From: Candidatus Nanopelagicales bacterium
GTDB lineage: Bacteria; Actinomycetota; Actinomycetes; S36-B12
Length of the DNA stretch: 43,876 nucleotides
Reading direction: 5' to 3'
Assembly (NCBI GenBank): GCA_017857175.1
Contig: JAFMDS010000013.1
Coordinates: 1-43,876 of the forward strand
Under the pieces are notes generated by a model, which was not told the DNA's origin, did no database searches, and saw nothing but the letters and a program-made list of their open reading frames with translations. Positions 12,507 to 42,773 of the stretch are shown here, one piece after another; the stretch's first letter is position 1, and every line of letters starts with the position of its first letter. The translations under genes were made by a program, and so were the position numbers.

Positions 12507-12617
12507 ATGTCTATCGCAAAATCAATGTTCATGGGTATCTCTCGATTTGTGGCAAAGTTGAAGGCCCGATCGATTTCTCAACCGGGCCTTCAACTTTTTG
12601 AGCGATTAGCTGATTGA
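12507..12617 (+). CDS. Candidate small protein, 36 residues, with perfect Shine-Dalgarno
   Basis: AGGAGG at 12494-12499 lies seven bases before an ATG that opens 36 codons. The N-terminal half is cationic and amphipathic (MSIAKSMFMG, then ISRFVAKLKAR), and the C-terminal part ends LFERLAD. The last third of the frame runs through the strong hairpin at 12554-12597 and overlaps the 3' end of proX on the other strand. The 291-bp stretch between the FN3 gene and proX otherwise holds nothing I recognise. This may be a real small peptide gene or an accidental frame upstream of a terminator. No homologue comes to mind. Confidence 0.35.
   Translation: MSIAKSMFMGISRFVAKLKARSISQPGLQLFERLAD
12554..12597. 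terminator. Strong hairpin, probable intrinsic terminator between convergent genes
   Basis: The 15-base arms at 12554-12568 and 12583-12597 are perfectly complementary (core GTTGAAGGCCCG). They enclose a 14-base loop, and the right arm continues into TT, giving a run of five T on the plus strand. The hairpin lies eight bases beyond the proX stop on the minus strand and downstream of the FN3 gene on the plus strand, so it probably serves both directions. Confidence 0.8.
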
Positions 12618-13637
12618 AGCGCCTGTACCGGCAAGCCACGAATTGACCGTGTCCTTGTTTGCTGCAATCCACTTCTGTGCTGCTTCCTGCGGTGTCATGC
12701 CACCCTCAATGTCCGCAGCGACCATGTTCTGGTCGTCATTGGTCCAGTTGAAGTTCGCAACAAGAGTTGCAAATGGTGAACCCGACTCGACGAGCTCAGT
12801 TGTCGCGAGCTTCATGAGTGGCGACTCGGGGTAGTCGGTCATACCGCTAGCCTCAGCTGGGTCAGTCCAGTCGTTGGCTGGGAAATTAACGCGAGCCAAG
12901 TCAACCTGAGCCAAGAAGTTCTGTGGCTCGTAGAAGTATCCGAGGGCTGCTGTTTTGTTGTCCGCGGCCTGAGTGAAGAGCTCGATGAGCGCAGCTTCAG
13001 ATCCCGTTGAGACAACTTGGTAATTCAAACCATAAGCATCGATGATCTTCTCACCGATTGTGGTGTAACCGGGAGGGCCTTCGTACCAAGCTCCCTTGTC
13101 ACCTGTCTCAGGTGTCTGGAATAGCTCGGCGTAGTCATTGAGCTTCGTTCCATCGGTTATATCTGGGTATTCATCAGCCATCCACTGAGGGACGTACATG
13201 CCAATGAGGCCAACGTTTCCGTTGGTGCCGACTTCTTGGATTGCTCCACGGTCAACCCACTCTTGCCAGCGGCCGCCGCCCCAATCTTCAACGATCACAT
13301 CGATGGAGCCAGCTTCCATGGCGTCATAGGTGACGCCGGCTTCCTCGAGTTGCGTTTGCTCAATCGTGCAACCAAGTGCGTCCTGAGCAACTTCGGCTAC
13401 GACCTGCGCAGAGGCGGTGTAACCAACCCATCCATGCATGGCGATTGCCCAGTCACCGCATGCCGCGACTTCTTCTGCTGCTTCTTCAGTAACTGCTTCT
13501 TCAGTAGCGACCGCCGCCTCTTCAGTTGCGGTTTCAGTGGCTGCGTCATTGACGCTATCGCCACAACCTGCGAGCACAAGACCTGCAACTGCCAACAGTG
13601 GCAACGCAGCCATGCGCTTGGTGAGGTTTCTCCTCAT
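12606..13637 (-). CDS. proX: Glycine betaine/proline betaine ABC transporter, substrate-binding lipoprotein
   Basis: A 343-residue lipoprotein that captures betaine-type osmolytes outside the membrane and delivers them to ProW. The signal peptide ends in a lipobox, LVLAGC, with lipidated Cys25. A flexible linker of Ala, Glu and Thr (about 33-58) follows, then the OpuAC-type binding domain from about residue 60. That domain is rich in the aromatic residues expected for a cation-pi cage (WAIAMHGWVGY, DWGGGRWQEW, GAWYEGPPGYTT, GYFYEPQ). It is the last gene of the leftward choline/betaine operon, 42 bp after proW, and has a strong ribosome-binding sequence (AAGGGGA). Specificity for glycine betaine over choline or proline betaine is inferred from neighbours. 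Confidence 0.92.
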   Translation of the reverse strand: MRRNLTKRMAALPLLAVAGLVLAGCGDSVNDAATETATEEAAVATEEAVTEEAAEEVAACGDWAIAMHGWVGYTASAQVVAEVAQDALGCTIEQTQLEEAGVTYDAMEAGSIDVIVEDWGGGRWQEWVDRGAIQEVGTNGNVGLIGMYVPQWMADEYPDITDGTKLNDYAELFQTPETGDKGAWYEGPPGYTTIGEKIIDAYGLNYQVVSTGSEAALIELFTQAADNKTAALGYFYEPQNFLAQVDLARVNFPANDWTDPAEASGMTDYPESPLMKLATTELVESGSPFATLVANFNWTNDDQNMVAADIEGGMTPQEAAQKWIAANKDTVNSWLAGTGASIS

Positions 13638-13679: not shown

Positions 13680-15635
13680 CTAACTCCGCCGCGCACTTGC
13701 GTGCGCGATCCGGTCCATCACAATCCCAAGAAGCACGATAGCCAGCCCTGCGGCTAATCCCTTTCCTTGGAGCTCTGGTTTCGACGCTCCTTGAAGAACC
13801 AAGTAGCCTAAGCCGCCCGCTCCAACAAGTCCGCCAATTACGACGACGGCCAATACGAAAATTAAACCCTGATTCGCCCCCAAAAGTAGGGACTTCTTGG
13901 AGGCTGGAAGTTGCACTTTCGTAACAACTTGGGTGGTGCTGGAGCCCGATGCAATTGCCGCCTCCACCATTTCCTTAGGTACACCGCGAACGCCGTCTGC
14001 CACGACGCGGACAACGACGGGGGCCGCGTAGAAGACTCCGCAGACGATTGCCGCGAAGCGGGTTGGACCAAAGAGGGCCAGAACGGGCACCAAGTACACG
14101 AAGGCGGGCAATGTTTGCCCAGCGTCGAGGAACGGTTTGAGTATTCGTTCGAATTTTGCATTGCGCCCAGCAGCGACACCCAGCACTACACCAATCAACA
14201 TAACGATTGTGGTCGCAATGAGAACCTGGGTGAGCGTAATCATGGTGTCGTTCCACAGGCCAATCCAAACAATAAGCAGTAATAGAATGGCAGAGAGGAT
14301 TGCAACGGTGCGTCCCCCAATGATTGCAGCTATCACTGAAATCATGATGATGGTGAGATACCAGGGCGCATCGGCCAAAAGGTATTCAATGGGATTCAGA
14401 ATATTGAGAGTGAAGACCTCATTGAATGAAGTTGTCAAGAAATAGAAAGTGGTTGTGAACCACTCGGTGATGGCATCGAACCAGTTACCAATTGGATCTC
14501 GAAAATCAAGGGACTCAGGGAATACTGCCGCCCAGAGTTGCTGGCGAGAGATCATGATGGCAACAATCGTTGCGATTGCCGCAGCTCCGAGGGAAAGGCG
14601 CCTCACGAGCAAAGGTTTCCCTGTCAGTGGAATCTGATTGCTGTGAACGACGGCCGCAGTTGTCGACCGGTCCAGCATCACGGCAATAAAGACCACTGCC
14701 AGACCCGCGGTGACACCATCGCCGATATTTCGAATAGAAAGCGCCTGAAGGACAGGTTCGCCCAGACCGGGTGCACCAATTAGTGCAGCGATGACCACGA
14801 AGGAAAGTGCTGCCAGAGTCGTCTGATTGACGCCAAGGATGATTGTTCGCTTGGCCATGGGCAACTGAACTTTGGTCAGTTTTTGCCAACGTGTGGAACC
14901 CATCGATTCAGCTGCCTCGATGGGTCCGTTCTGCAGGCTCCGAATTGCATGTGCAGTGATGCGAATACCGATAGGAATGCTGTAGATCATCGTTGCAATG
15001 GTTGAGGCCGCAATACCGATGAGGAAAACCAGTGCAAGTGGTGCTAGGTAGACCAGGGTCGGAAGGATCTGAGCGAGGTCAAGTACCGGGCGCACAGTTT
15101 TCATGACTCGGTCATTGAGACCCGCCCAAATTCCTATGGGAAGAGCAATCACCAATGAGAGCACGACAGCACCAATGGTCAATGCCAGGGTGTCCATGGA
15201 GTAGGTCCACATTCCAAGAACGCCGCACCCAAAAATCAACACCATGGAAAGCAGTGATGTGCGCCAGTTTGATGTTGCGAAAACTATGAAACCGATAAAG
15301 GCCAAAATCCCCACCCAGCCAATGACAGGGATCAGCGCACCTGGAGCAGGGTCCGATATGACTGCTCGGATGACTTCGACGAAACTTTCTATGCCTTGGC
15401 GGAACGGGTTGAAAATGTAAACAAAGATTGGATTCTCGGCCCGTGCCGCGCGAATATTCGCAGCAAACTGACCGAGTACTTCAGTGGTTGGGGTGTCCTC
15501 CGAGTTGCCAATATCAAGGGTGTGAACTCCCTTAAATATTCGACCAAGGACAAACCAAACAACAAGGAGCCCGACAATTAATACCCACTTGCGACGCAAA
15601 AACTCGGGAACGTGAGTGTCAATGTACGCTTTCAT
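13680..15635 (-). CDS. proW: Glycine betaine/proline betaine ABC transporter, two-domain permease
   Basis: A 651-residue integral membrane protein. It contains two ProW-type permease modules in one chain, where most systems use two copies of one module of about 300 residues. Each half has an EAA-like loop that docks the ATPase: EAAESMGSTRWQKLTKVQLP in the first half and EAAIASGSSTTQVVTKVQLP in the second. GAPGLGEPV and GAGGLGYLV follow at matching places. N-terminal and interdomain amphipathic segments precede each module. The start overlaps the proV stop by four bases. Fused permeases occur in several marine and actinobacterial ProU systems; the duplicated layout is clear in the sequence. 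Confidence 0.93.
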   Translation of the reverse strand: MKAYIDTHVPEFLRRKWVLIVGLLVVWFVLGRIFKGVHTLDIGNSEDTPTTEVLGQFAANIRAARAENPIFVYIFNPFRQGIESFVEVIRAVISDPAPGALIPVIGWVGILAFIGFIVFATSNWRTSLLSMVLIFGCGVLGMWTYSMDTLALTIGAVVLSLVIALPIGIWAGLNDRVMKTVRPVLDLAQILPTLVYLAPLALVFLIGIAASTIATMIYSIPIGIRITAHAIRSLQNGPIEAAESMGSTRWQKLTKVQLPMAKRTIILGVNQTTLAALSFVVIAALIGAPGLGEPVLQALSIRNIGDGVTAGLAVVFIAVMLDRSTTAAVVHSNQIPLTGKPLLVRRLSLGAAAIATIVAIMISRQQLWAAVFPESLDFRDPIGNWFDAITEWFTTTFYFLTTSFNEVFTLNILNPIEYLLADAPWYLTIIMISVIAAIIGGRTVAILSAILLLLIVWIGLWNDTMITLTQVLIATTIVMLIGVVLGVAAGRNAKFERILKPFLDAGQTLPAFVYLVPVLALFGPTRFAAIVCGVFYAAPVVVRVVADGVRGVPKEMVEAAIASGSSTTQVVTKVQLPASKKSLLLGANQGLIFVLAVVVIGGLVGAGGLGYLVLQGASKPELQGKGLAAGLAIVLLGIVMDRIAHASARRS

Positions 15636-16678
15636 GCGTTGAGTTCCTCATTTATGTCCTCGGCAAAAACGGTGAGCAGCTCGTCGCGCCCAATGCAGCC
15701 AATGATTTCCCCGTTCTTTGCAATTGATATCGGATCAGGGTCACTCATAACCCGGTGCATTACTGATCGGACAATTGCATCATGCGGAATTGGCTGCGAC
15801 GAGCTTGCGTGACCCCCGCTGATGGGTACCGCTATGTCAGCAACTCGGAGAACATGTGACTTGGGAATGTCGTTGGTAAAGTCAGAGACATAGTCATCTG
15901 CTGGGTTCAAAACCAATTCCGTGGGAGTACCAACCTGAACGATTGCACCATCGCGCATGATCGCGATGCGGTCACCGATTCGCATTGCTTCAGCGAGGTC
16001 GTGGGTAATGAACACCATTGTTTTGTTGAGGTCGTCATGCAGGCGGACGATTTCGTTTTGCATGTCCCTTCGGATCAGGGGATCGAGTGCGCTAAATGGT
16101 TCATCAAGGAACATGACTTCGGGGTCAACAGCGAGAGCGCGGGCTAGTCCAACACGTTGCTGCATGCCACCGGAGAGTTGTTCGGGATAGTGATTGGCGT
16201 AACCACTTAAGCCGACAAGTTCAATGACTTCATTCGCGCGGGCATGACGCTTGTCTTTTTTGACACCATTAACTTCAAGTGAGTAGGCGATGTTGTCAAT
16301 GATTGATCGATGGGGGAGAAGACCGAAATGCTGAAACACCATGGAGAACTTAGTGCGTCGCAATTCACGCAGGCGGGACTTTGAAGCGGCAAGAATGTCT
16401 TCACCTTCAATGAAAACTTCACCGGACGTCGGCTCAATTAAACGAGTGAGGCAGCGGACCAACGTAGACTTTCCTGAGCCGGAAAGACCCATAACGACAA
16501 ATACTTCACCGTCGGCGACGTCGAAGGAAACGTTGTTGACAGCGGCAACGCAACCGGTCTTTTCCAGAAGTTCAGGGCGACTCAAGTTCGCATCGGGCGT
16601 TCCAACAATTGCATTCGGAGTCGGCCCGAATACCTTCCACAGGTTTCGAACTGAGATCGCAGAATCGCTCGTGGTCAT
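15632..16678 (-). CDS. proV: Glycine betaine/proline betaine ABC transporter, ATP-binding subunit
   Basis: A 348-residue ATPase that powers betaine uptake. Walker A is GLSGSGKST (residues 64-72), the Q-loop is VFQHFGLLPHR, the ABC signature LSGGMQQR starts at 168, Walker B VMFLDEP is at 188-194, and the H-loop is FITHDLAEAM. The C-terminal region (about 285-345) resembles a single degenerate CBS-type module, the part that senses ionic strength in OpuA-type transporters. The N-terminal KVFGPTPNAIV extension is typical of ProV. The gene sits ten bases after betB and overlaps proW by four bases, so it belongs to the same transcript. Confidence 0.95.
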   Translation of the reverse strand: MTTSDSAISVRNLWKVFGPTPNAIVGTPDANLSRPELLEKTGCVAAVNNVSFDVADGEVFVVMGLSGSGKSTLVRCLTRLIEPTSGEVFIEGEDILAASKSRLRELRRTKFSMVFQHFGLLPHRSIIDNIAYSLEVNGVKKDKRHARANEVIELVGLSGYANHYPEQLSGGMQQRVGLARALAVDPEVMFLDEPFSALDPLIRRDMQNEIVRLHDDLNKTMVFITHDLAEAMRIGDRIAIMRDGAIVQVGTPTELVLNPADDYVSDFTNDIPKSHVLRVADIAVPISGGHASSSQPIPHDAIVRSVMHRVMSDPDPISIAKNGEIIGCIGRDELLTVFAEDINEELNA

Positions 16679-16687
16679 GATTGCTCC

Positions 16688-18145
16688 TTAGGCGCCAAAC
16701 CAGCCACTGGGTGCTGGACTTGTGTTGTGGTAAACATGTTTGGCCTCGAGGTATTCGAGTAATCCATTTGGCCCCAATTCACGGCCAATTCCTGACTGTT
16801 TGAAGCCACCCCATTCAGCTTGTGGCACATAGGGGTGGAAGTCGTTGATCCAAATAGTTCCATGGCGCAAAGCATTTGCCACGCGTTGCGATTTTCCTGC
16901 ATCCTGGGTCCAGACGGCGCCGGCGAGGCCGTAGTAGGTGTCATTCGCCAGTGCTATTGCCTGCTCTTCAGTAGTGAAAGTTTCAATGGTCACAACTGGC
17001 CCAAATGATTCATCCTGCACACACGACATATGAGTTGTGCAATTCGCGAGAATTGTGGGGGGATAAAAATAACCGGGACCCTCGGGGATCTCTCCGCCGC
17101 AAAGTAGCTCCGCTCCCTCGCTGACCCCCTTCTCCACGAACGTGTGCACTTTATTTCGATGCGCTTCACTGATCAATGCCCCTGTTTCGGCTGACTCATC
17201 GAATGGTCCACCGAGACGAATTTTCTTGGCACGCTCCACAAATTCTTGGAGGAATGAATGATGAATGGATTGCTCAACGATTAATCGAGAGCCAGCGGAA
17301 CAAACTTGACCAGAATGCAAGAAGATTGCGGTCAGCGCGTTATCGAGAGCCGCTTCTAAGTCTGCGTCGGCAAAAATTATGTTGGGGTTTTTGCCGCCAA
17401 GTTCAAGCGCAACTTTTTTGATTGTTGCGGCAGCACTTGCCATGACACGTTTTCCGGTTTCCAATCCTCCGGTGAAAGAGACCATGTCAACCTTGGAGCT
17501 GCTTGTCAGAGTCTCACCAATGCTGGCACCTGCGCCGAGCACTAAGTTCCCAACTCCGGGGGGAAGGCCAGCATCGACTAACGCCTGCATAAACATGATG
17601 GAAGTGCTCGGAGTTAGTTCACTCGGCTTGAGCACAAAAGTGCAGCCTGCGGCAATTGCAGGTGCGACTTTCCAGACGGCTTGCAGCAGGGGGTAATTCC
17701 ACGGGGTAATGAGTACTGCCACACCAACGGGTTCGTACTGAACGCGAGATTGAATGTGTGAATCACCAGTATCGACCGAGCGGCCAGAGAATGTGGGGCC
17801 AAGTTGCGCAAAGTATCGGAGACACCGAATTGAGTCAGCGATGTCGTAGCGGGCCTCAACAATTCGCTTGCCCGTGTCCATCGACTCGGCCTGAGCAAAC
17901 TCTTCAAGTCGCTCTTCGATGAGATCGCCCGTTCGCTCTAAGATCGCGCCGCGTTGGATAACGGAAATCTGGGTCCACCAGCCTGAATCGAATGCGGAAC
18001 GGGCCGCATCTATGGCCGCCTGAGCATCAGCGGGGCCAGCTTCATCAACCTTCTTGAACACTGTGCCATCGGCTGGGCAGATGATTTCACGTTCTGCACC
18101 ATCGTGGGCTGCAACCCAGACCCCATTGATGTGCAGATCAGTCAC
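16688..18145 (-). CDS. betB: Betaine aldehyde dehydrogenase
   Basis: A 485-residue NAD(P)-dependent aldehyde dehydrogenase that oxidises betaine aldehyde to glycine betaine. The catalytic residues expected of the superfamily are present: Asn150 in TPWNYP, Glu248 in LELGGKNP and Cys282 in GQVCSAGSRL. NAD-binding SFTGG lies at about 224. Length matches the family. The choice of betaine aldehyde as substrate rests on its place between the choline dehydrogenase and the betaine transporter; sequence alone would only say aldehyde dehydrogenase. It is the third gene of the leftward operon, 52 bp after betA. Confidence 0.9.
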   Translation of the reverse strand: MTDLHINGVWVAAHDGAEREIICPADGTVFKKVDEAGPADAQAAIDAARSAFDSGWWTQISVIQRGAILERTGDLIEERLEEFAQAESMDTGKRIVEARYDIADSIRCLRYFAQLGPTFSGRSVDTGDSHIQSRVQYEPVGVAVLITPWNYPLLQAVWKVAPAIAAGCTFVLKPSELTPSTSIMFMQALVDAGLPPGVGNLVLGAGASIGETLTSSSKVDMVSFTGGLETGKRVMASAAATIKKVALELGGKNPNIIFADADLEAALDNALTAIFLHSGQVCSAGSRLIVEQSIHHSFLQEFVERAKKIRLGGPFDESAETGALISEAHRNKVHTFVEKGVSEGAELLCGGEIPEGPGYFYPPTILANCTTHMSCVQDESFGPVVTIETFTTEEQAIALANDTYYGLAGAVWTQDAGKSQRVANALRHGTIWINDFHPYVPQAEWGGFKQSGIGRELGPNGLLEYLEAKHVYHNTSPAPSGWFGA

Positions 18146-18197: not shown

Positions 18198-19853
18198 TTA
18201 TGCCAATTTTTGATGCTGATAAAAGGCGATCTCCTCAGATGGGAGGGGATTGTTACCTTTGATGAGATCGGCTGCTTTTTCTGCGATCATCATGGTGGGG
18301 GCGTAAATATTTGCGTTGGTCACAACAGGCATCACGCTGGCATCAACCACGCGCACGCCCTCGATACCGTGCACCTTGAGTGAGTCGGGATGCACAACTG
18401 ACATGTCATCGAGGCCCATTTTGCAGGTGCAAGATGGGTGGTAGGCGGTTTCGCCGTCTTCCCTGACCCACTCAAGGATTTCTTCGTCGCTTGACACGCT
18501 TGGTCCCGGTGAGATCTCTCCATCCGAGTATGGATCGAAAGCCGACTGACCTAAAATTTTGCGGGCGACATGGACAGCTTCAATCCACTCCCGCTTGTCT
18601 TCGTCTGTGGACAGATAATTGAACAGAATGGCGGGTGCTTGGGTAGGGTCGTTGCTCTTGATCTTGACGCTGCCACGTGCATTGGAATACATAGGGCCGA
18701 TATGTACTTGGTAGCCGTGGCCACCCTCGGGTGCGGTGCCGTCATAGCGCACGGCAATGGGCAGGAAGTGGAACATCAGGTTGGGGTAGTCGACATCCTC
18801 ATTGCTGCGTGCGAATCCTCCGCCCTCAAAGTGATTCGATGCGCCGGGACCTCTACGCAGGAACAGCCACGCGGCGCCGATAAAAGGTCTGCGCCAGAAC
18901 GCTAAATTGGGATTGAGCGAGACTGGTTGCTTGCATGCGTGTTGAACATAAACTTCGAGATGATCCTGCAAATTTTCACCGACACCTGGAAGGTGATGTA
19001 CCGTTTCCACCCCGACACTGTTGAGGTGCTCACTGTTTCCCACTCCCGAAAGCTGAAGCAGTTGTGGTGAGTTGATGGCTCCGCCACACAGAATGACTTC
19101 GTCACAGTCGAAGGCGACCCTTTTCTTTCCTCTGACGAGTGCATCAACACCTACAGCTTTCTTGCCTTCGAAACGAATGTTGGTGGCGAGGGTGCGTGTT
19201 TTCACCGTCAAATTTGTGCGATGCATCACCGGATGGAGATAGGCGCCAGCCGCAGAGAGGCGGCGCCCATTTCGCACGCTGCCATCAAATGGTGCGAAGC
19301 CTTCTTGCTGAAATCCGTTGACATCCTCGGTGAGTGGATAACCGGCTTGCTGCGCGGCACTGAAAAACGCTCCAAATAGTGGGTTTTTCACCTTGCCTTT
19401 GTTGACTTCCAGTGGGCCTGACGTGCCCCGCCACTCACTGTCACGACCCTTGGCATTTTCCATCTTTTTGAAGTAAGGCAGGCAGTGGGCGTAATCCCAG
19501 TTACTCATGCCCGGTTCCTTGGACCATTTTTCATAGTCCAATGGATTACCCCGCTGGAAGATCATTCCGTTGATGCTGCTTGAACCGCCTATTACTTTGC
19601 CTCGGCCCGCGGTCACCCGTCGATTGTTCATATGTGGTTCTGGCTCAGAGGAGTACATCCAGTCGTAGTGCTTGTTGCCAATTGGAAAGGTTAAAGCGGC
19701 AGGCATGTGAATGTAGACGTCCCACCACGAATCCATGCGTCCCGCTTCAAGCACGAGAACAGTTTTGTTGGGGTCTTCGCTCAGTCGATTTGCAAGTGCA
19801 GATCCGGCCGAGCCTCCACCAACAATGATGTAGTCGTACTTTTTATTCGCCAT
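18198..19853 (-). CDS. betA: Choline dehydrogenase (GMC flavoprotein)
   Basis: A 551-residue FAD enzyme of the glucose-methanol-choline family, oxidising choline to betaine aldehyde with electrons passed to the respiratory chain. The FAD motif [19 protein letters not shown] is at the N-terminus. The GMC signatures [15 protein letters not shown] and [16 protein letters not shown] are intact. The catalytic pair corresponds to His472 ([11 protein letters not shown]) and Asn515 (TNANIYAPT), matching the His/Asn pair of choline oxidase. The start is four bases beyond the end of mttB, so the demethylase and the choline oxidation genes are tightly coupled. Other alcohols cannot be excluded on sequence, but context strongly favours choline. 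Confidence 0.92.
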
Positions 19854-19856
19854 AAA

Positions 19857-21296
19857 TTAGTCACCAAGTTCTGTGCGCCGACGGTTTACGTATTCCAACA
19901 GTTCCTGTTCCATAGCAGAGTCCATGGCTGGCTTTTCGTATTCCTCGATTTTCTTCTCAGCAATCTCCGCCGCGCGCACTGCCGTGTCCTTGGACCCGTT
20001 GCGCGTCCACCGTTCGAAGTTGTCTGAACTGGACAGGAATGGGCGGTAGAAGCAGTCCCGAAAGCGTTCCATTGTGTGCATGGCTCCAAGGAAGTGGCCG
20101 GCGTGGCCGACTTCCTCATGCGCACCGAATGCGAGGGCTTCGTCGTCAAAATGAATTGGAGTGAATTCATGTTGCAATGACTCAAGAATTTGGACGTCGA
20201 TGACGTACTTTTCAATGCTCGAAACGAGCCCGCCTTCAAGCCACCCAGCAGTGTGCATGACGAAGTTTGTGCCCGAGAGGAATGTAGGCATCATGGTCAT
20301 CATGGATTCATAGGCTGATTGTGCATCGGGTACCTGTGATGAGTTCAGTCCGCCGCCGCCACGGAATGGCAACTTAAAGTGCCGGGCAATTTGACCGGTG
20401 GCAAGTAATCCAATGCCGGATTCAGGGGTTCCAAACTGGGGTGAGCCCGACTGCATATCAATATTAGAAAGGAACGAACCAAATACAACAGGCGTTCCAG
20501 GTCGCACTAATTGGGCGAGTGCGATACCCGTGAGTGCCTCAGCGATTTGCTGTGCGAGTGCTGAGGGGATAGAGACGGGTGACATGGCGCCCATGAGTAG
20601 AAACGGTGTGCAAATAACGGGCTGCCCTGCGCGCGCATATTCCATGAGGGAATCGAGCATGCGGTCGTCCCACCGAAGCGGAGAGTTGCAATTGATCAAG
20701 TTGATGCAGAAGGGGGTCTCTTCAATCGCTGCTCGACCTCCGAACACGATTTCACCCATTGCGAGCGTATCTTTTGCGTTAATTTCACTGACCACGTTGC
20801 CCATGACGATTTTGTCGGTCAAAGTAAAGGCAGCAAAGAGCATGTCTAGGTGTCGAGAATCTAGGGCAGCATCGCCTGGCTCGACCACTACACCACCAAC
20901 GCTGTCCATAGCCTTGAATGACTGCGCAAGTTTGGCAAAGTCGCGGAAGTCATCCATGGAACCCTCACGGCGGACATCACCGCGGCGGAAAAACGGCGGA
21001 CCGTAAACACTTGAGAACACCATGTTGTCCCCACCGATAATGACGTCATTGGCATGGTTGCGAGCTTGAATGTTGAATTGGCTAGGAGCTTTAGCCACCT
21101 GTTCGAGCACGAATTCAGGGTCAAAGAAAACTTTTTCGCCGTCAACGCGTTGACCAGCCGCCTTGAACATTTCAACGGCTTCGGGCTTGGCAAACTCAAT
21201 GCCCAGTTCGCTGACGATCCGGCGCCAGCCTCGATCGAGGGTGGCCATGGCCTCTGGCGAGAGGATCTCGTAACGCGGCATCGAGTTGGTGAACAT
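19857..21296 (-). CDS. mtgB: MttB-family methyltransferase, non-pyrrolysine, MtgB-like (glycine betaine:corrinoid)
   Basis: A 479-residue member of the trimethylamine methyltransferase family. It would transfer a methyl from a quaternary amine to the Co(I) corrinoid protein encoded divergently. Landmarks are the N-terminal YEILSPEAMATL, TPFCINLINCNSPLRWD, a central GTPVVFGSF segment, the glycine-rich GGGGLNSSQVPDAQS and the C-terminal ALAFGAHEEVGHAGHFLG. The frame is uninterrupted by an in-frame TAG, so it lacks pyrrolysine and belongs to the large group typified by MtgB. Glycine betaine is the most probable substrate given betA, betB and proVWX in the same operon. Proline betaine, carnitine or others remain possible. 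It starts behind AAGGAG and is the first gene of its operon. Confidence 0.88.
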   Translation of the reverse strand: MFTNSMPRYEILSPEAMATLDRGWRRIVSELGIEFAKPEAVEMFKAAGQRVDGEKVFFDPEFVLEQVAKAPSQFNIQARNHANDVIIGGDNMVFSSVYGPPFFRRGDVRREGSMDDFRDFAKLAQSFKAMDSVGGVVVEPGDAALDSRHLDMLFAAFTLTDKIVMGNVVSEINAKDTLAMGEIVFGGRAAIEETPFCINLINCNSPLRWDDRMLDSLMEYARAGQPVICTPFLLMGAMSPVSIPSALAQQIAEALTGIALAQLVRPGTPVVFGSFLSNIDMQSGSPQFGTPESGIGLLATGQIARHFKLPFRGGGGLNSSQVPDAQSAYESMMTMMPTFLSGTNFVMHTAGWLEGGLVSSIEKYVIDVQILESLQHEFTPIHFDDEALAFGAHEEVGHAGHFLGAMHTMERFRDCFYRPFLSSSDNFERWTRNGSKDTAVRAAEIAEKKIEEYEKPAMDSAMEQELLEYVNRRRTELGD

Positions 21297-21323
21297 CGGA
21301 CTCCTTGGACGACGGTGGGATCT

Positions 21324-21349
21324 AGCTTTAGGTTCGAGCTTTAGGTTCG
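21324..21349. repeat. Perfect 13-bp tandem duplication in the mttB-iclR promoter region
   Basis: AGCTTTAGGTTCG occurs twice in immediate succession (21324-21336 and 21337-21349), 28 bp upstream of the mttB start. It could be a replication-slippage duplication or two regulator half-sites in the 5' region of the mttB transcript. Confidence 0.6.
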
Positions 21350-21422
21350 AAGTATGAATTTGTGGGGTAACTATTTTTCACAATGCTCTTGCGCCTGAGC
21401 AGATTCGAGATCTAGACTCAGT

Positions 21423-21442
21423 TATGGAACAACTGTTTCATA
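21423..21442. promoter_or_regulatory. Candidate IclR operator between mttB and iclR
   Basis: TATGGAAC-AACT-GTTTCATA is an inverted repeat with seven of eight positions paired. It lies in the 223-bp divergent region, about 77 bp before iclR and 126 bp before mttB. IclR-family operators such as those of KdgR and IclR are palindromes built on (T)GAAAC...GTTTC(A) or TGGAA...TTCCA, which this resembles. Control of both divergent operons from one site is inference. Confidence 0.5.
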
Positions 21443-21519
21443 ATGTGGATCATTTGTGTACCGATTTCGAAAATTTTCTTTGCAGAGGTATCTAAAGGGG
21501 TATCTAAGAGGAGGCGAGG

Positions 21520-22410
21520 ATGGCCAGTCCCACCGGGACCCAAGCGGTTGACCGCGCTTTAAGCCTGCTGACCATGGTTATGGAGTCTCCGCGGGCGATT
21601 TCCTTTGGCGACCTCCAGGAAATGAGTGGGCTGGCCAAAAGCACCCTTTCGCGGTTGCTTTCCAGTCTGGAAAATTCCGGACTTATTAGTCGGAACTCAC
21701 AGGGTGCCATCCGAGCAGGATCATCCTTGACCCGATTTGCCTATTCACACCTGCCCAATGAAGAACTCATTGACTTTGCGGGCCCGAGCATGGATGCCTT
21801 GGGCCAGGCAACGGGGGAAACCATCAATCTCGCTGTCCTCTTGGGGGATGAAGTTGAGCAAATCAGCCAGGTTGATTGCACTTTTCATATTGGTGGCGTG
21901 AATTGGGGTGTGTCCCGCGTACCGCTTCACTGCTCGGCACTGGGCAAAATTTTCCTGGCGTACGGTGCAACGCTCCCGGAGGGTCGCTTAGCACGCTTGA
22001 CTCCACGGTCAATCACAAATCGAAAGGTCCTTGAGGCTGAACTCGAAGAGACGCGCACCCGCGGTTGGTCACTAGCAGATTCCGAACTGGAGGTGGGCTT
22101 GATCGCTATCGCGGCACCAATTTTCATTGAGACGGGCGAGATAATTGGCGCACTTTCGATTTCGGGTCCAACAATGCGCATGACTCGTGAAGTGAGCATG
22201 GAGTACGCGGATTTATTGCTCGAGCAGGCTGCTTTGGTGTCCGAAAAATTTGGTTATCTCATGGTGCCGAATGGCAAATTTCCAGCAACACCGGATCAAG
22301 TTATTGATCACAACGCAATGAATCACAACGCAACGAATAATCCATTAGTTAGTCAACAATCCCCTGCTCCCCAGCCGGAGCAGGATCGCAGAAGGGTTGG
22401 TGCCGCATGA
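21520..22410 (+). CDS. IclR-family transcriptional regulator
   Basis: A 296-residue regulator. An N-terminal winged HTH (about 8-70, with AVDRALSLLTMV and GLAKSTLSRLLSSLENSGLI) is followed by the IclR effector-binding domain (about 85-250). That domain has the conserved HCSALGKIFLAY turn and a GLIAIAAPIF...GALSISGP core. The last 45 residues are a Asn/Gln/Pro-rich tail beyond the usual family length, probably disordered. It has an AGGAGG ribosome-binding site five bases before the ATG and overlaps the corrinoid-protein gene by four bases. It is therefore co-transcribed with, and likely regulates, the demethylation genes on both sides. The ligand is probably betaine, choline or a product, which is inference. 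Confidence 0.92.
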   Translation: MASPTGTQAVDRALSLLTMVMESPRAISFGDLQEMSGLAKSTLSRLLSSLENSGLISRNSQGAIRAGSSLTRFAYSHLPNEELIDFAGPSMDALGQATGETINLAVLLGDEVEQISQVDCTFHIGGVNWGVSRVPLHCSALGKIFLAYGATLPEGRLARLTPRSITNRKVLEAELEETRTRGWSLADSELEVGLIAIAAPIFIETGEIIGALSISGPTMRMTREVSMEYADLLLEQAALVSEKFGYLMVPNGKFPATPDQVIDHNAMNHNATNNPLVSQQSPAPQPEQDRRRVGAA

Positions 22411-23063
22411 CACCAGACGACGTCCTCAAGGGTCTCTACGACGAAACAATGGTGGGCAATGCGCCAGCCGTTTTGGAGTTGACCAATAAGGGTCTTGAAA
22501 TCGGCATGACTCCCGAGACAATTCTTTTCGACGCACTGATTCCGTCACTGGAGGAAGTAGGTGCTCGCTTTGAGCGCGGAGACTACTTTGTGCCAGAGAT
22601 GCTCATTGCTGGTCGGGCAATGTCAGGGGCGCTCGATGTCTTGCGTCCCCTGCTTGCCCAGACCGGTGTGGAGAGCGTTGGGACATTCTTGATGGGAACG
22701 GTTAAAGGCGATGTTCATGACATCGGCAAAAATCTGGTCAACATCATGCTGGAAGGCGCAGGTTTCCAAGTTATTGACATTGGCGTTCAGGTCCCACCAG
22801 AAAAATTCATTGCAGCCATTGAGGAGCACAATCCAGACATCGTTGGCATGTCAGCATTCCTCACCACAACGATGCCTATGTTCAAAGCTAATATCAACGC
22901 CATTGAGAAAGCTGGGTTGCGCGACAAAGTCATCATTATGGTTGGTGGAGCACCGGTCACCCAGGAGTATGCGGATGTGTGCGGCGCTGACGGGTACGCC
23001 GCTGATGCGGCAACTGCTGTCCGTCGGGCCAAGGAACTTATCGCAACGAAGCGTGCTGGTTAA
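22407..23063 (+). CDS. mtgC: Corrinoid protein of the methyltransferase system (MtgC/MttC-like)
   Basis: A 218-residue cobalamin carrier that accepts the methyl from the MttB-like protein and hands it to THF. An N-terminal helical B12-binding-2 domain (1-85) leads to the Rossmann-like B12 domain. The DxHxxG signature is DVHDIG (residues 102-107), and His104 should be the lower axial cobalt ligand. The later GMSAFLTTTMPMFK and MVGGAPV segments complete the cobalamin site. It overlaps the iclR stop by four bases and precedes the methylene-THF reductase pair. The family is strongly supported; the partner methyltransferase follows from the divergent operon. Confidence 0.95.
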   Translation: MTPDDVLKGLYDETMVGNAPAVLELTNKGLEIGMTPETILFDALIPSLEEVGARFERGDYFVPEMLIAGRAMSGALDVLRPLLAQTGVESVGTFLMGTVKGDVHDIGKNLVNIMLEGAGFQVIDIGVQVPPEKFIAAIEEHNPDIVGMSAFLTTTMPMFKANINAIEKAGLRDKVIIMVGGAPVTQEYADVCGADGYAADAATAVRRAKELIATKRAG

Positions 23064-23068
23064 TTCCT

Positions 23069-23455
23069 GTGCGAAAGTTGTTGCCCATGGTGGAGCACGC
23101 CATGAAAAAGCCCATTTGGGATTGCCGCATGTGCGGTCAATGTGTGCTGCATTCCACGGGGATGACCTGTCCCATGACCTGTCCCAAAACTTTGCGCAAC
23201 GGCCCATGTGGCGGTGTGCGAGAGAACGGCAACTGCGAAGTCATCCCTGAAATGCAGTGCGTGTGGGTGAAGGCAAATGATCGCGCGGAGAATATGCCGC
23301 TTCTGCCCAAGTCATGGCGAGAGGAAATAAGCCACTTGCGCCCGCCGGTTAATAACGCACTGAAGGGTGACTCCTCGTGGCTCAATTTGGTCAACGGCAA
23401 AGACCGTGAAACACCTGACGGTTGGATCGGCATCGAGCACAAGGAAGCGCATTGA
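23069..23455 (+). CDS. metV: MetV-like cysteine-rich subunit of methylene-THF reductase
   Basis: A 128-residue protein of the methylenetetrahydrofolate reductase C-terminal family. It contains eight cysteines: Cys19, 22, 25, 34, 38, 47, 56 and 64, in the conserved pattern CRMCGQCVLHSTGMTCPMTC followed by GPCGGV. Acetogen MetV carries a metal centre in this region and works with MetF. The GTG at 23069 keeps the short helix before the first cysteine that relatives share; an ATG at 23102 with GGTGGAG upstream is an alternative. The stop overlaps metF by one base. Here it probably helps MetF run as a methyl-THF oxidising enzyme. Confidence 0.88.
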   Translation: MRKLLPMVEHAMKKPIWDCRMCGQCVLHSTGMTCPMTCPKTLRNGPCGGVRENGNCEVIPEMQCVWVKANDRAENMPLLPKSWREEISHLRPPVNNALKGDSSWLNLVNGKDRETPDGWIGIEHKEAH

Positions 23456-24357
23456 TGTCCTTCGATTCCCTTGTGAAAAATAGGGCTAGGCCAATCGTGA
23501 CGGCTGAGTTCCCCTCCATTAATGGGGGAACCCTGGACCAGGTAGCACGCGAATGGGAGCGGCTAGGCCCACTCGTTGATGCGGTTAACGTGACAGACAA
23601 CCCCGCAGCTCATGCACACTCTTCGAATGTCTCGGTTGCAATTGCCCTTCAAAACCTTGGCGCTGATGTGATCATGCAGGTTGTTTGCCGGGACAAGAAC
23701 AGGCTCGCAATACAGGCAGACATTGTGGGTGCGGCTATGCATGGCGTGCGGACTATTTGCGCGCTGACGGGTGACGATGTCACCGCGGGAGATGAACCAG
23801 AAGCGCGCAGGGTTTTTGATCTAGACGGACCGCAACTCATCTCTGTGGCCACGGGACTTTCACAGGGAACGTTTCTTTCCGGCCGCAAAGTCACTGATCA
23901 CAAAGAACTTCTTGTGGGTGGTGTTGAAAATCCATTTGCACCCCCAATGCAGACACGAATAAAGCGTGCGCGAATGAAAGTGGATGCAGGCGCTAAATTT
24001 TTGCAACTTCAGATTGGTTATCAACCTGAAATGCTCGAGGAATTTATGGCAGGCATTGTGGCCAACGGCGTAACTCAAGATGCCGCAATCATTCCCACGG
24101 TTATTTTGACCAAAAATTCACGTGCGTTGAATTTTATGAATGACAAAGTTGCAGGGATTGTCGTCCCTCAAAATGTCATTGATCGGGTCGCGGAATCCGA
24201 AGATCAACCCGAGGCGTCATATCAACTGGTAAGGGATTCGGTGGAGCATGCGCTCTCTTTGCCAGGAGTGGCGGGAATTCACATCACAGATTTTCGGCAC
24301 GACGACACCGTTGCTCGACTTGTATCCGATTTTAATTTAGGTCCACAACACAACTAG
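23455..24357 (+). CDS. metF: 5,10-methylenetetrahydrofolate reductase, MetF family
   Basis: A 300-residue flavoprotein interconverting methyl-THF and methylene-THF. It opens with a family-typical TAEFPSINGGTLDQVAREWERL segment. VNVTDNPAAH marks the folate-site turn, TICALTGDDVTAGDEPEA the flavin-site strand, and KFLQLQIGYQPEML the C-terminal barrel strand. The start is the ATG at 23455, overlapping the metV stop by one base, rather than an upstream in-frame ATG at 23422. The position between a corrinoid protein and a methyl-THF methyltransferase implies oxidation of methyl groups, as for MetF2 in chloromethane degraders. The electron acceptor is not evident. Confidence 0.92.
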   Translation: MSFDSLVKNRARPIVTAEFPSINGGTLDQVAREWERLGPLVDAVNVTDNPAAHAHSSNVSVAIALQNLGADVIMQVVCRDKNRLAIQADIVGAAMHGVRTICALTGDDVTAGDEPEARRVFDLDGPQLISVATGLSQGTFLSGRKVTDHKELLVGGVENPFAPPMQTRIKRARMKVDAGAKFLQLQIGYQPEMLEEFMAGIVANGVTQDAAIIPTVILTKNSRALNFMNDKVAGIVVPQNVIDRVAESEDQPEASYQLVRDSVEHALSLPGVAGIHITDFRHDDTVARLVSDFNLGPQHN

Positions 24358-24382
24358 CCCACCTAGCAAAAGGAAGCAATCC

Positions 24383-25243
24383 ATGCACACAACAGTGAGT
24401 TCAGCGACAAAGACGGTAACCATTGGACCGGATCAGCCCTTTTGCATTATTGGTGAGCGTATTAACCCGACGGGCCGCAAAATTTTCCAAGAACAACTGC
24501 GCGCAGGGGACATGAGTGCAGTTGAGAAAGATGTTTTGGATCAGGTAGCAATGGGCGCGACCATGCTCGACGTAAACATGGGGGCGCCATTGGTTGATGA
24601 AGCTGAATTGCTGGCCAAAGCCGTAACCATGATTCAAGAGCTCACCGACTTGCCGTTGTGTATTGATTCATCTGTCGTCGAGGCCCTAGAGGCAGGGCTG
24701 GATGCCTACAAAGGCAAGGCCCTGGTGAACTCCATAACCGCTGAGGACGAGCGCATGGAATTGATTTTGCCGCTGGTCAAGAAGCATGGAGCGGCCATCA
24801 TCGCCTTGCCAAACGATGAATTCGAGATCCCTGAAGAACCAGAGCGTCGGCTTGAGCTGACCAAGTACATTGTTGAACAGGCAACCGGAAAATACGGGAT
24901 ACCTATCGAGGACATCGTTATTGATCCACTCGCCATGCCCATTGGTGCCGACTCTCAAATGGTTGTTCGGACTCTGAAGACAATCGAACTCATCCGCGAC
25001 ACATTTGATTTGAATATGACCCTGGGTGCATCCAATGTCTCATTCGGAATGCCAGACCGTCACGCCCTCAACGCGGTATTCATCCCCATGGCAATGAAAG
25101 CGGGCCTGACCAGCGCAATCATGGATGCCCGAACGGAAAAGATCGTGACTGCCGTTCGCGCCGCCGATTTGATGATGGGCAATGACGAGTGGGGTGCTTC
25201 TTGGATCGCGTTACATCGTGCCAAAGAAGCGGCCAAAGCGTAA
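24383..25243 (+). CDS. mtgA: Methyltetrahydrofolate:corrinoid methyltransferase (MtgA/AcsE-like)
   Basis: A 286-residue TIM-barrel pterin-binding enzyme. It would move the methyl from the methylated corrinoid protein to THF. Landmarks are IIGERINPTGRK (pterin-site start), GATMLDVNMGAP, LPLCIDSSVVEALEAGL, ALVNSI and NMTLGASNVSFGMP. These match the methyltransferase domain of AcsE, MtgA and MetH. It has a ribosome-binding sequence AAAGGAAG and follows metF by 25 bp. With mtgC it closes the corrinoid half of the pathway, giving methyl-THF as substrate for MetVF. Confidence 0.93.
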   Translation: MHTTVSSATKTVTIGPDQPFCIIGERINPTGRKIFQEQLRAGDMSAVEKDVLDQVAMGATMLDVNMGAPLVDEAELLAKAVTMIQELTDLPLCIDSSVVEALEAGLDAYKGKALVNSITAEDERMELILPLVKKHGAAIIALPNDEFEIPEEPERRLELTKYIVEQATGKYGIPIEDIVIDPLAMPIGADSQMVVRTLKTIELIRDTFDLNMTLGASNVSFGMPDRHALNAVFIPMAMKAGLTSAIMDARTEKIVTAVRAADLMMGNDEWGASWIALHRAKEAAKA

Positions 25244-25246
25244 ATA

Positions 25247-27175
25247 GTGCATTCTTCCGCTATGGAGCAATCACCTGACCTGGATTTCGATTCAGGCACC
25301 CTGATTGCTGATCCCGGCCCCGAGGTGCCGCACCCCGATGAACCAAGCACTGATGAGCCAACCCGCATCGGAATTGCTTTTGAGCCCAGTGGCAAAACGG
25401 TTCGTGTCCCATTGGGTGTCACCGTGTTTGACGTGGCAAGTTGGAATGCCATTGCGGTGGACTCCACCTGTGGCGGTCACGGAACCTGCCGCAAGTGCCG
25501 GGTTCAGATTCTCGAGGGCGAAATGCCTAGTGGGTCAGCTGATGCACGAGCCTTCACTGAGGAGGAGTTAGAGCAAGGCTGGCGCCTCGCATGTCAGGCC
25601 TGTGCTTTCAATGACCTCAAGGTGCATGTCCCTGAACTCACCACGCGACCTAAAGCCTCAACGGTCGGAGTGGGCCGCCAGGTAATTCATCGGCCAACTC
25701 TGCTCAAGCGATACTTGCAGCTGCCCGAACCAGATCTGGTTGATCAACGTCCTGATCTTCGACGCGTCCTTGACGGCATCACAGACATGACCACAAATGT
25801 GGACCCCATGTTGCTACGAACACTTCCAACAGTCTTGCGCAAAGCGAACTTTGAGGTAACTGCCGTAGTGGTTGATGACATGCTCGTTGCGGTCGAGTCA
25901 GGGGACACGACGGACAAGTTATATGGCATTGCATTTGACCTCGGAACTACAACGGTCGTTGCCACTCTATTGGATCTTTCTAATGGAATGCCGCTTGCTG
26001 TTTCTTCCATGTTGAACATGCAGCAGCAATTTGGTGCTGACGTCATCAGTCGAATCAGTGCAACAATGCTCGATCCCAATAAACTTTTTGATCTGCAGCG
26101 TTTGGCTCACGAAACTTTGGATCAACTCACGGGTGAGGTGTGCCAAGAAGCTGGAATTGAACGCGTTGATGTCTATCAAGTAGCTCTCGCAGGTAATGCG
26201 ACCATGGTGCAAATCGCTTTAGGCATTGACCCAGAACCCCTTGGTGTTGCTCCATTTATTCTTGCGGCCGAGGACTATCCTGATGTGCGCGCAATGGAGT
26301 TGGGCGTCAACATCAATCCGCGAGCTCGTGCAACATTGTTCCCCGCGCTTGGCGCATATGTCGGTGGCGACATTGTTTCTGGCGCTCTGGCCTCCGGTAT
26401 GGATCGCGATCAGAGGGTGCGTCTGTTCATTGATGTGGGCACCAACTGCGAAATGATTCTTGGCAATTCCGAAAAACTTTTGGCCACCGCTGCGCCTGCA
26501 GGGCCGGCATTTGAGGCTGCCTCCATAAAGTGCGGTATGCGCGCAGCACCTGGTGCGATCGAAGTTGTTGCCATTGATCTTGATGGAGTGAAGCTGGGGA
26601 CAATTGATTCTGTACCAGCGGTTGGAATTTGCGGGTCGGGATTGGTTGATGCAGTCGCTGAACTTGTAAAAGTCGGGTTACTCGATGGGTCTGGTCGCTA
26701 TGTCAGCGATGAGATCGCACAGAGCGTCAGTCCGGCTCTTGCCCAACGACTTGTCATGCGCGGTCAGGAACGAATTTTCATGTTGACCGAGCCCGGCGAG
26801 CAGGAGGTGTTCCTGTCTCAGCGCGATGTGCGCGAACTTCAATTTGCCAAGGCTGCCATCTCAACAGGTTGGGCCATTTTGCTCGAGGAGTACGGCATCG
26901 AGCAAAAGGATGTGCAACAGGTGCTCCTGGCAGGTTCATTTGGCAGTTACCTATCGGCCAAGAGTGCAAAGGCAATTGGTCTGGTACCCGATATTGCTAC
27001 AACGCGAATCCTTAGCGCTGGAAATGTCGCTGGTGAGGGAGCAAAAATGGTGCTCCTGTCGGGTTCTGAACGCAATGGGGCTAAATCGCTCATGAATTTG
27101 GTGCGCTACGTCGAACTATCTGACCGCGAAGACTTCAATGACCGCTTTGTGGGAGAACTCGCTTTTCCTGGGTAA
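25247..27175 (+). CDS. Corrinoid reductive activase, ASKHA-type with N-terminal [2Fe-2S] ferredoxin
   Basis: A 642-residue protein that uses ATP to restore inactive Co(II) corrinoid to Co(I). After a variable acidic N-terminus, a plant-type ferredoxin domain spans about residues 42-125. Its cluster ligands are Cys75, Cys81, Cys84 and Cys116 (CGGHGTCRKC, RLACQAC). A linker region leads to the actin-like ATPase domain, which starts at about 226 with GIAFDLGTTTVVATLLDL and contains LAGNATMVQIALG and FIDVGTNCEMILG. This is the RACo/DUF4445 architecture. It starts with GTG three bases after mtgA; an ATG at 25262 is possible. Such an activase is expected wherever a corrinoid methyltransferase faces oxygen. 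Confidence 0.9.
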   Translation: MHSSAMEQSPDLDFDSGTLIADPGPEVPHPDEPSTDEPTRIGIAFEPSGKTVRVPLGVTVFDVASWNAIAVDSTCGGHGTCRKCRVQILEGEMPSGSADARAFTEEELEQGWRLACQACAFNDLKVHVPELTTRPKASTVGVGRQVIHRPTLLKRYLQLPEPDLVDQRPDLRRVLDGITDMTTNVDPMLLRTLPTVLRKANFEVTAVVVDDMLVAVESGDTTDKLYGIAFDLGTTTVVATLLDLSNGMPLAVSSMLNMQQQFGADVISRISATMLDPNKLFDLQRLAHETLDQLTGEVCQEAGIERVDVYQVALAGNATMVQIALGIDPEPLGVAPFILAAEDYPDVRAMELGVNINPRARATLFPALGAYVGGDIVSGALASGMDRDQRVRLFIDVGTNCEMILGNSEKLLATAAPAGPAFEAASIKCGMRAAPGAIEVVAIDLDGVKLGTIDSVPAVGICGSGLVDAVAELVKVGLLDGSGRYVSDEIAQSVSPALAQRLVMRGQERIFMLTEPGEQEVFLSQRDVRELQFAKAAISTGWAILLEEYGIEQKDVQQVLLAGSFGSYLSAKSAKAIGLVPDIATTRILSAGNVAGEGAKMVLLSGSERNGAKSLMNLVRYVELSDREDFNDRFVGELAFPG

Positions 27176-27207
27176 TTCGCACCTAAAGCCCAAAATGGGC
27201 AAAGGGG

Positions 27208-27237
27208 TTGCGCAGACTTATATATAACTGATATATC
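27208..27237 (+). promoter_or_regulatory. Leaderless promoter with overlapping inverted repeat, upstream of gntR/FCD
   Basis: TTGCGC (27208-27213) and TATATC (27232-27237) are 18 bases apart, and the -10 ends six bases before the GTG at 27244, without any Shine-Dalgarno. The inverted repeat ATATAT-AACTG-ATATAT (27220-27236) covers the -10. A regulator bound there would block transcription, which suggests autorepression of the GntR gene and its operon. A short hairpin GCCCA-AAA-TGGGC at 27188-27200 lies just upstream. Confidence 0.5.
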
Positions 27238-27243
27238 TATCCC

Positions 27244-27879
27244 GTGACTTTGACACAGGAGGCTTATGAGGGGCTTCGCACCCTGATATGCACGGGGGAG
27301 TTGGCTCCTGGCGATGTTGTCTCGGAGCCTGCCTTGCAGGAATCTCTGGGGCTTGGGCGCACTCCCATTCGTGAGGCGATCCGCATGCTCGCGGCCGAAC
27401 ACCTCATTGAGATTTTCCCTCGCCGGGGGATGTTCGTAGCTGGAGTGGACCCCCGAAATTTGCGGGCCATGAGCGAGGTTCGGGCAATCTTGGAGCCCAT
27501 GGCGGCGCGTCTTGCTGCGGAGCGCAGGACAAGCGAAGACCTTATGAATCTGCGAACCGCTCGTAATGAACTTGAGGTGTTGGAGAACAGCAACTTGAGT
27601 GATCAGGAGCGTGCATTGATTGATCTGGATTCACGCATTCATCACTACATTTACCAAGCAACAAAGAATACGTACCTTGCCGCAGATCTTGATCGCTATT
27701 ACATGCACTCACTTCGAATTTGGAATCTCGGATTGGGACGCATTGGACATTTGCGCCAAGCGGTGCTCGAACACAAGGAATTGGTCGAGGCCGTCATAGA
27801 AGGTGACAGTGACCAAGCGTTTAACGTGATGAACAAGCATGTTTGTGAGTTCGAAGCCGAAATGGCACAAGCAATATAA
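27244..27879 (+). CDS. GntR-family transcriptional regulator, FCD (FadR) type
   Basis: A 211-residue regulator. The winged HTH occupies residues 1-68 (LQESLGLGRTPIREAIRMLAAEHLIEIFPRRGMFV). The all-helical FCD ligand domain follows (about 75-205), with metal-binding-type positions in LDSRIHHYIYQAT and VLEHKELVEAV. It starts with GTG and seems leaderless. It precedes the dimethylglycine dehydrogenase/ETF/formate operon and is probably its controller; the inverted repeat over its own promoter supports autoregulation. The ligand is unknown; dimethylglycine or sarcosine would be logical guesses. Confidence 0.92.
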   Translation: MTLTQEAYEGLRTLICTGELAPGDVVSEPALQESLGLGRTPIREAIRMLAAEHLIEIFPRRGMFVAGVDPRNLRAMSEVRAILEPMAARLAAERRTSEDLMNLRTARNELEVLENSNLSDQERALIDLDSRIHHYIYQATKNTYLAADLDRYYMHSLRIWNLGLGRIGHLRQAVLEHKELVEAVIEGDSDQAFNVMNKHVCEFEAEMAQAI

Positions 27880-27924
27880 AAAAATCGTCTGCACAGAATG
27901 CAGAACATTATGAAAGGGAAACAC

Positions 27925-30444: not shown

Positions 30445-31202
30445 TGGACATTGCTGTATGCATCAAACGAGTGCCGCTTCTTGGCAGTGCAATTGTGCTC
30501 ACCGCAGACAACATGGCCATTGACACCTCAAAAGTCGGCTTTGGTCTGAGTCCGCATGAAGAATGCGCGGTTGAAGCGGCCGTGAAGTTGGTAGAAGAAA
30601 ACGGTGGCTCTGTCACGCTCATCAACATTGGACACATTGATGGTGAAGAACAGATCCGGGAGCAAATGGCCATTGGCGCTGATCGTGCGATTTTGATTGA
30701 CACCAATGGAGCGGAGCCTGATCCTCAGGCGGCGGCAACGGCGCTGGCCGACGCAATTAGTTCCGATGACACCAACTTTGATTTGGTGCTCATGGGTTCC
30801 GAGAGTGCGGATTACGGCGGCTCGCAAACGGGTATCCGTGTTGCTCACAAACTCGGCCTACCTGTTGTGACATCCGTCAAGGGGCTCAAGATTGATAGCG
30901 GCATAGCCACGTGCGAGCGCGCAGTCGGTTCAACCCGAGAGGTTTACACCGTCCCGCTTCCCGCAGTGATAACCGTGAAAGACGGTCTCAACATTCCACG
31001 TTATGCATCAGTACCAGGACGCATGAAAGCACGTAAAAAGCCCGTTGACATTAAACAGGTTTCATTTGCTGGTTCACGCATTACTACAAAGCAGTTGGTC
31101 GTTCCTGTTCAAGAGGCAAAGGGAGCAACAAACCTCGGCACAGGTGCCGAGGCAGCAGATGCCCTCGTTGAAGTCATGAAGCAGATCGGAGTTTTGTCAT
31201 GA
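30444..31202 (+). CDS. etfB: Electron transfer flavoprotein, beta subunit
   Basis: A 252-residue AMP-binding subunit of ETF. It begins DIAVCIKRVP and contains the standard GFGLSPHEECAVEAAV, GADRAILID, LVLMGSESADYGGSQTG and VKDGLNIPRYASVPGRMKA segments, the last near the ETF-beta signature. It starts inside the stop of the dehydrogenase gene (TAATG) and overlaps etfA by four bases. Electrons from the dehydrogenase upstream would be carried to ETF:quinone oxidoreductase, which is not encoded in the window. Confidence 0.95.
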   Translation: MDIAVCIKRVPLLGSAIVLTADNMAIDTSKVGFGLSPHEECAVEAAVKLVEENGGSVTLINIGHIDGEEQIREQMAIGADRAILIDTNGAEPDPQAAATALADAISSDDTNFDLVLMGSESADYGGSQTGIRVAHKLGLPVVTSVKGLKIDSGIATCERAVGSTREVYTVPLPAVITVKDGLNIPRYASVPGRMKARKKPVDIKQVSFAGSRITTKQLVVPVQEAKGATNLGTGAEAADALVEVMKQIGVLS

Positions 31203-32158: not shown

Positions 32159-32186
32159 CGATCATCGCAGGGGAATGGAAAATTAA

Positions 32187-33869: not shown

Positions 33870-33872
33870 ACC

Positions 33873-42161: not shown

Positions 42162-42162
42162 A

Positions 42163-42762: not shown

Positions 42763-42773
42763 AACCTGACTAC

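Follow-up and report, generated by a model that had tools for sequence, protein, structure and literature searches.

The frame at 19857–21296 on the minus strand of the window (the whole 43,876-nucleotide stretch of DNA analysed, from a Candidatus Nanopelagicales bacterium) very probably encodes an MtgB-type glycine betaine:corrinoid methyltransferase acting within a choline- and betaine-oxidising pathway. The predicted protein (479 aa, mtgB-like) was placed among the non-pyrrolysine members of the MttB superfamily by its PF06253 match, its active-site residues and Foldseek comparison. Glycine betaine is the best-supported substrate, because the genes for the corrinoid, methyltransferase and activase partners lie divergently to it and because related loci lacking bet genes, the phylogeny and a set of invariant residues point the same way.

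Family, fold and active site of the predicted methyltransferase

The frame runs from ATG to TAA over 479 codons and has no internal stop of any kind, which bears out the statement in the first-pass annotation that it lacks an in-frame TAG. The protein matches PF06253 (MTTB) over its full length (605 bits; cut-off 25) and so belongs to the MttB superfamily (PF06253/COG5598), and it is the sole PF06253 gene found in its own genome (2.0 Mb, 98% complete). Identity as the pyrrolysine TMA methyltransferase MttB was ruled out, as the amber codon is absent and the score with the pyrrolysine-type TMA model TIGR02369 (278 bits) is below the cut-off of 525. The protein is 43.5% identical to S. meliloti 4YYC, which is annotated only as a putative TMA methyltransferase, 39.7% identical to D. 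hafniense MtgB (2QNE) and 26.7% identical to M. barkeri MttB. Its AlphaFold model (pLDDT 78.7, less reliable in a number of loops around the pocket) has a TIM-barrel fold, and the best Foldseek matches were 9yce, 2qne and 4yyc (TM about 0.85), the first of which is titled ‘Active site of MtgB, a glycine betaine methyltransferase’.

Four MtgB residues, Y94, N199, R309 and H345, were predicted by docking to hold betaine in a study of Methanolobus vulcani (PMC6855144). These align to Y98, N202, R312 and H348 of the window protein, so that a search for a residue binding the betaine carboxylate, proposed as a check when the gene was first noted, turned up the whole docking-predicted set. All four are invariant in 33/33 tree members of the actinobacterial clade and in 113/113 clade entries (at least 64% identity, duplicate entries included). 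The 4YYC clade has them as well (26/26 members); at these positions pyrrolysine MttB (7XCL) has G, C, Y and Y. The chance of identity plus invariance at four random MtgB positions is about 0.002, a rough figure that treats positions as independent. Counting against an MtgB-type reading, MtgB F353, a possible cation–pi residue, is replaced by G356. Two close paralogues, L070_11708 (60%) and L161 (53% identical to the window protein), carry Q in place of both Y98 and H348 and have probably changed substrate, judging by these replacements; the former adjoins a canonical mttB copy.

In an IQ-TREE phylogeny the actinobacterial sequences form one clade (100/100) inside a group (100/99) that also contains the 4YYC clade and several clades lacking assigned specificity. 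This group is sister to MtgB, the whole including MtgB is supported at 100/100, and pyrrolysine MttB falls outside. The branching order within the group is weakly supported (80/44), and FastTree agrees on the group and differs inside it. A phylogeny of this kind (COG5598) had been suggested as a check on the assignment, and the protein groups with MtgB and 4YYC rather than with pyrrolysine MttB in a sampling that did not extend to the E. limosum enzymes MtcB, MtpB, MtyB and MthB. As far as these sequences go, the actinobacterial proteins are a separate, sequence-distinct clade of the aerobic MtgBCD kind. An MttB homologue without Y98 (43% identical to the window protein) lies on a Leisingera caerulea plasmid (L147, 9001–10434), where it adjoins an MmgE/PrpD gene.

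Gene content of the locus and the pathway it may encode

Downstream on the same strand lies betA (choline dehydrogenase, 18198–19853; TIGR01810, 859 bits, above cut-off). The junction TAATTTATG reads TAA-TTT-ATG: the mttB stop and the betA start codon (ATG at 19853) are three bases apart, so that the first base of betA is the fourth one past the stop; the spacing of four bases given in the first-pass annotation corresponds to this count. A GGTGA shortly before the betA ATG, inside the end of mttB, could be a ribosome-binding site. As had also been described, betB and transporter genes follow on the minus strand: a betB-like betaine aldehyde dehydrogenase gene (16688–18145; best NCBIfam model TIGR01804, 575 bits, below the cut-off of 669), a ProV-like ATPase of the betaine/choline family of ABC transporters (15632–16678; TIGR01186, 371 bits, above the cut-off of 327), a permease of the betaine/choline type (13680–15635; two matched stretches, TIGR03416 and ProW models) and an OpuAC-type betaine/choline substrate-binding protein (12606–13637; PF04069, 124 bits). 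The permease has two permease domains fused in one protein of 651 aa.

The divergent half of the locus (21520–39563, plus strand) was absent from the first-pass annotation and we count it as the strongest evidence. The two halves are separated by a 223-bp intergenic region (21297–21519), which we presume from the conserved divergent arrangement to be a shared control region; a promoter scan of it found no sigma-70 consensus promoter. An IclR-family regulator gene (21520–22410; PF01614, PF09339) is followed with a 4-nt overlap by a gene for an MtgC-like corrinoid protein (22407–23063; PF02310, PF02607) with the B12 motif DVHDIG, for which the best NCBIfam model is NF047996 MtgC (206 bits, below the cut-off of 370). 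Next come genes for a MetV-like (DUF5981) methylene-THF reductase C-terminal protein (23069–23455; PF12225, 87.5 bits), a MetF-like methylene-THF reductase predicted to oxidise methyl-THF (23422–24357; PF02219, 87 bits), an MtgD-like, pterin-binding methyl-THF:corrinoid methyltransferase (MeTr, 24383–25243; PRK07535, 319 bits, above cut-off, a model also matched by its S. meliloti counterpart) and a RACo/ASKHA reductive activase of the corrinoid protein with a 2Fe-2S domain (25247–27175; PF14574, PF17651, PF17650, PF00111). Corrinoid protein, pterin methyltransferase, MetF-type oxidation and activase are hence encoded together, as in an aerobic MtgBCD system. Beyond a GntR/FCD regulator gene (27244–27879; PF07729, PF00392) lie genes for a dimethylglycine/sarcosine dehydrogenase-like (DMGDH-like) protein combining an FAD oxidoreductase with a folate-binding GcvT domain (27898–30444; PF01266, PF16350, PF01571, PF08669), the beta and alpha subunits of an electron-transfer flavoprotein (ETF, 30444–32158), formate–THF ligase (32187–33869; PRK13505, 884 bits, above cut-off), the formate dehydrogenase sulfurtransferase FdhD (33873–34742; TIGR00129 above cut-off, PF02634) and NuoE-, NuoF- and FdhA-like subunits of an NAD-linked formate dehydrogenase (34604–39563; PF01257, TIGR01959 below cut-off, TIGR01591 with 886 bits, above cut-off). 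After the formate dehydrogenase genes the window (40134–43805) encodes an Abhydrolase_9 protein (675 aa) and a 199-aa protein without a family match, and a gene for a trans-3-hydroxy-L-proline dehydratase-like proline racemase lies there at 42747.

Read as a pathway, the locus would be a near-complete gene set that takes choline to CO2 by way of betaine and dimethylglycine. The ABC transporter would import choline or betaine, BetA and BetB would convert choline to betaine, and MtgB would take one methyl group off betaine and load it onto the cob(I)alamin of MtgC, the corrinoid protein encoded on the divergent side. The MeTr protein would then pass the methyl group to THF and the MetV/MetF-type reductase would take methyl-THF to methylene-THF, while the FAD/GcvT protein would remove further methyl groups from dimethylglycine as methylene-THF. 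Formate–THF ligase and formate dehydrogenase would finish the oxidation to CO2, yielding ATP and NADH, and RACo would repair cobalamin that has been oxidised to Co(II).

Conservation of the locus and the choice of substrate

In GTDB species genomes, 80 loci were found whose proteins are 69–93% identical to the window protein. Title or gene order assigns all of them to Actinomycetota (Nanopelagicales, Nocardioides, Phycicoccus, Nostocoides, Mumia, Kineosporia and others); some carry no title beyond ‘uncultured bacterium’, and L021 shows the same gene order in spite of its title, Rubrivirga. Longest-ORF gene calling was unreliable in high-GC Nocardioides loci, and homology matches were used there. 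PF06253 was present in 68/166 genomes of the same order, usually in one copy, and in 65/396 genomes of a phylum sample. In 67 of the 68 related loci with enough 5′ flank iclR–mtgC is divergent to mttB. The next same-strand gene within 600 bp is betA or betB in 36/71 related loci, and one or the other occurs anywhere in the locus in 38 of the 51 whose 3′ flank exceeds 8 kb, an adjacency that, on these counts, is more than chance. In two loci (L062 and L076) mttB overlaps the formate–THF ligase gene by 3 bases, a coupling unlike that with betA. The earlier proposal that betaine is the most likely substrate, which was based on this physical coupling, is thus supported beyond adjacency by the partner genes, the almost invariable divergent core, the tree and the four invariant residues.

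The alternative that survives best, although we consider it improbable, is that the substrate is some other carboxylated quaternary amine (carnitine, gamma-butyrobetaine or proline betaine) and that shared regulation accounts for the bet genes lying next to mttB. MtcB and MtyB are 53% identical yet have different substrates (PMC8604678), R312, N202 and H348 could hold the carboxylate of any betaine, and neighbouring clades keep R and H without Y98; the hydroxyproline dehydratase-like gene at 42747 would also fit. However, Y98 is kept throughout the 113 clade entries, a DMGDH-like gene is part of the locus, no carnitine gene was identified among the scanned locus proteins, and choline-to-betaine enzymes recur in relatives, adjoining mttB across Nanopelagicales and near mttB in Nocardioides.

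Adjacency to bet taken alone would also allow choline as the substrate. Direct demethylation of choline or phosphocholine has a precedent in MthB, which acts on phosphocholine in E. limosum (PMC12155760), and both bet and choline-type transporter genes adjoin mttB, but such a reaction would make no use of BetA and BetB, whose genes stand in the same run, the locus yielded no choline kinase, and the predicted carboxylate-binding residues are kept. Phycicoccus-type loci, in addition, have no bet genes nearby and keep a betaine-type ABC transporter and/or a DMGDH-like gene, a pattern that favours betaine over choline and leaves direct choline demethylation very unlikely.

Equally slight is the probability that the corrinoid module serves mainly as a split methionine synthase with betaine demethylation secondary. 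Ruegeria MtgC and MtgD do both (PMC12478193) and an MtgE/Bmt-like gene lies on contig C51, but this genome retains a full-length MetH frame of 1186 aa that includes homocysteine, B12 and reactivation domains, and the locus has C1-oxidation genes and no identified homocysteine methyltransferase. A dual methionine synthase/betaine demethylase (MtgBCDE) that replaces MetH is therefore not what is found here. The C51 gene (4437–5264) encodes a homocysteine methyltransferase like S. meliloti Bmt and Ruegeria MtgE (PRK07534, 270 bits, cut-off 338); given this protein, a side role in methionine synthesis may exist, and the protein itself could provide another betaine route. The S. meliloti Bmt/MtgE homologue is without betaine-binding residues (PMC12478193).

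Relation of the proposed betaine demethylation to known systems

For glycine betaine as the substrate the closest comparison is the aerobic MtgBCD(E) system of R. pomeroyi, S. meliloti and other marine and soil Proteobacteria (PMC12478193). In the aerobe Ruegeria pomeroyi mtgC and mtgD mutants do not grow on betaine and MttB-type proteins rise on betaine in proteomics (PMC12478193, PNAS 2025). The window locus is alike in its non-pyrrolysine MttB, MtgC-like protein, pterin-type MeTr (MtgD), MetF2, RamA/RACo and aerobic host, oxic life being likely from two heme-copper oxidase genes in the host genome. The divergent gene order is also that of S. meliloti and Paracoccus methylovorus plasmids (mttB / corrinoid–DUF1638–MetV–MetF–MeTr–ASKHA), and on an Azoarcus plasmid mttB lies near genes for a choline-binding protein, betA and betB. 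The window protein differs in belonging to a separate clade with about 44% identity to 4YYC, and the locus in having bet genes directly downstream of mttB and in including formate–THF ligase and formate dehydrogenase. MetH, which most MtgBCD-bearing marine bacteria lack (PMC12478193), is retained, and the system therefore need not take part in making methionine. DUF1638 (PF07796), presumed to be a cobalamin recharging partner in Ruegeria and accessory rather than defining, was not found in the window's own genome by profile search. In relatives it is encoded beside RACo (L007 and L036) or close by (L041), and the slot between RACo and gntR (window 27175–27244) is closed in the near relatives L003 and L005 and is about 0.7 kb, the size of DUF1638, in several others. 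The window's own genome also gave no match to the alpha domain of a Rieske betaine monooxygenase.

Desulfitobacterium hafniense MtgB/MtgC/MtgA (2QNE, 9YCE) shares the superfamily, the fold, the four predicted betaine-binding residues and the THF acceptor, whereas the identity of the MtgB proteins is only 40%, D. hafniense is an anaerobe and its F353 is G356 here. A passage of PMC7154762 has its authors describing D. hafniense MtgA as without sequence identity to known structures; the window MeTr, in contrast, belongs to PF00809. Pyrrolysine MttB (7XCL) is alike in fold and in having a corrinoid partner but differs in its 27% identity, amber codon, Pyl site and pocket residues. The E. limosum enzymes MtcB, MtpB, MtyB and MthB, likened here by description rather than by sequence, are likewise non-pyrrolysine MttB superfamily members acting on quaternary amines.

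The gene had been put forward as giving a precise prediction for one of many uncharacterised MttB-family members. The assignment is indeed precise, but the 2025 Ruegeria study (PMC12478193), by which the aerobic MtgBCD kind is already known, takes weight from any claim to be the first. New here is a common actinobacterial clade with bet coupling, local formate oxidation and retained MetH, and no described actinobacterial MttB system was found in the literature searched. Most of the MttB superfamily is without an assigned substrate, and about 100 actinobacterial sequences, including those of culturable Nocardioides, Mumia and Nostocoides, gain a precise assignment that can be tested. If correct, it would mean that methyl groups from choline-derived betaine are burnt for energy in a freshwater-type actinobacterium, would place cobalamin-dependent betaine demethylation, known from marine Pseudomonadota (PMC12478193), in freshwater and soil Actinomycetota, and would link their choline turnover to a need for B12. 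Actinomycetota account for 5% of ocean mtgC reads (PMC12478193). On balance we favour the broader view that many Actinomycetota of plankton and soil gain energy in the presence of oxygen by a dedicated, B12-dependent methylotrophy that uses choline and betaine. A clade-specific MtgB would there share one regulon with the oxidation of choline and with that of C1 units all the way to CO2, and in this lineage the system would have been freed from methionine synthesis, MetH being retained. A ‘Bacteriophage sp.’ record from human faeces (MT835866.1:883–2319, 16 kb), probably a bacterial contig filed as phage, also encodes a complete MttB with 71% identity to the window protein.
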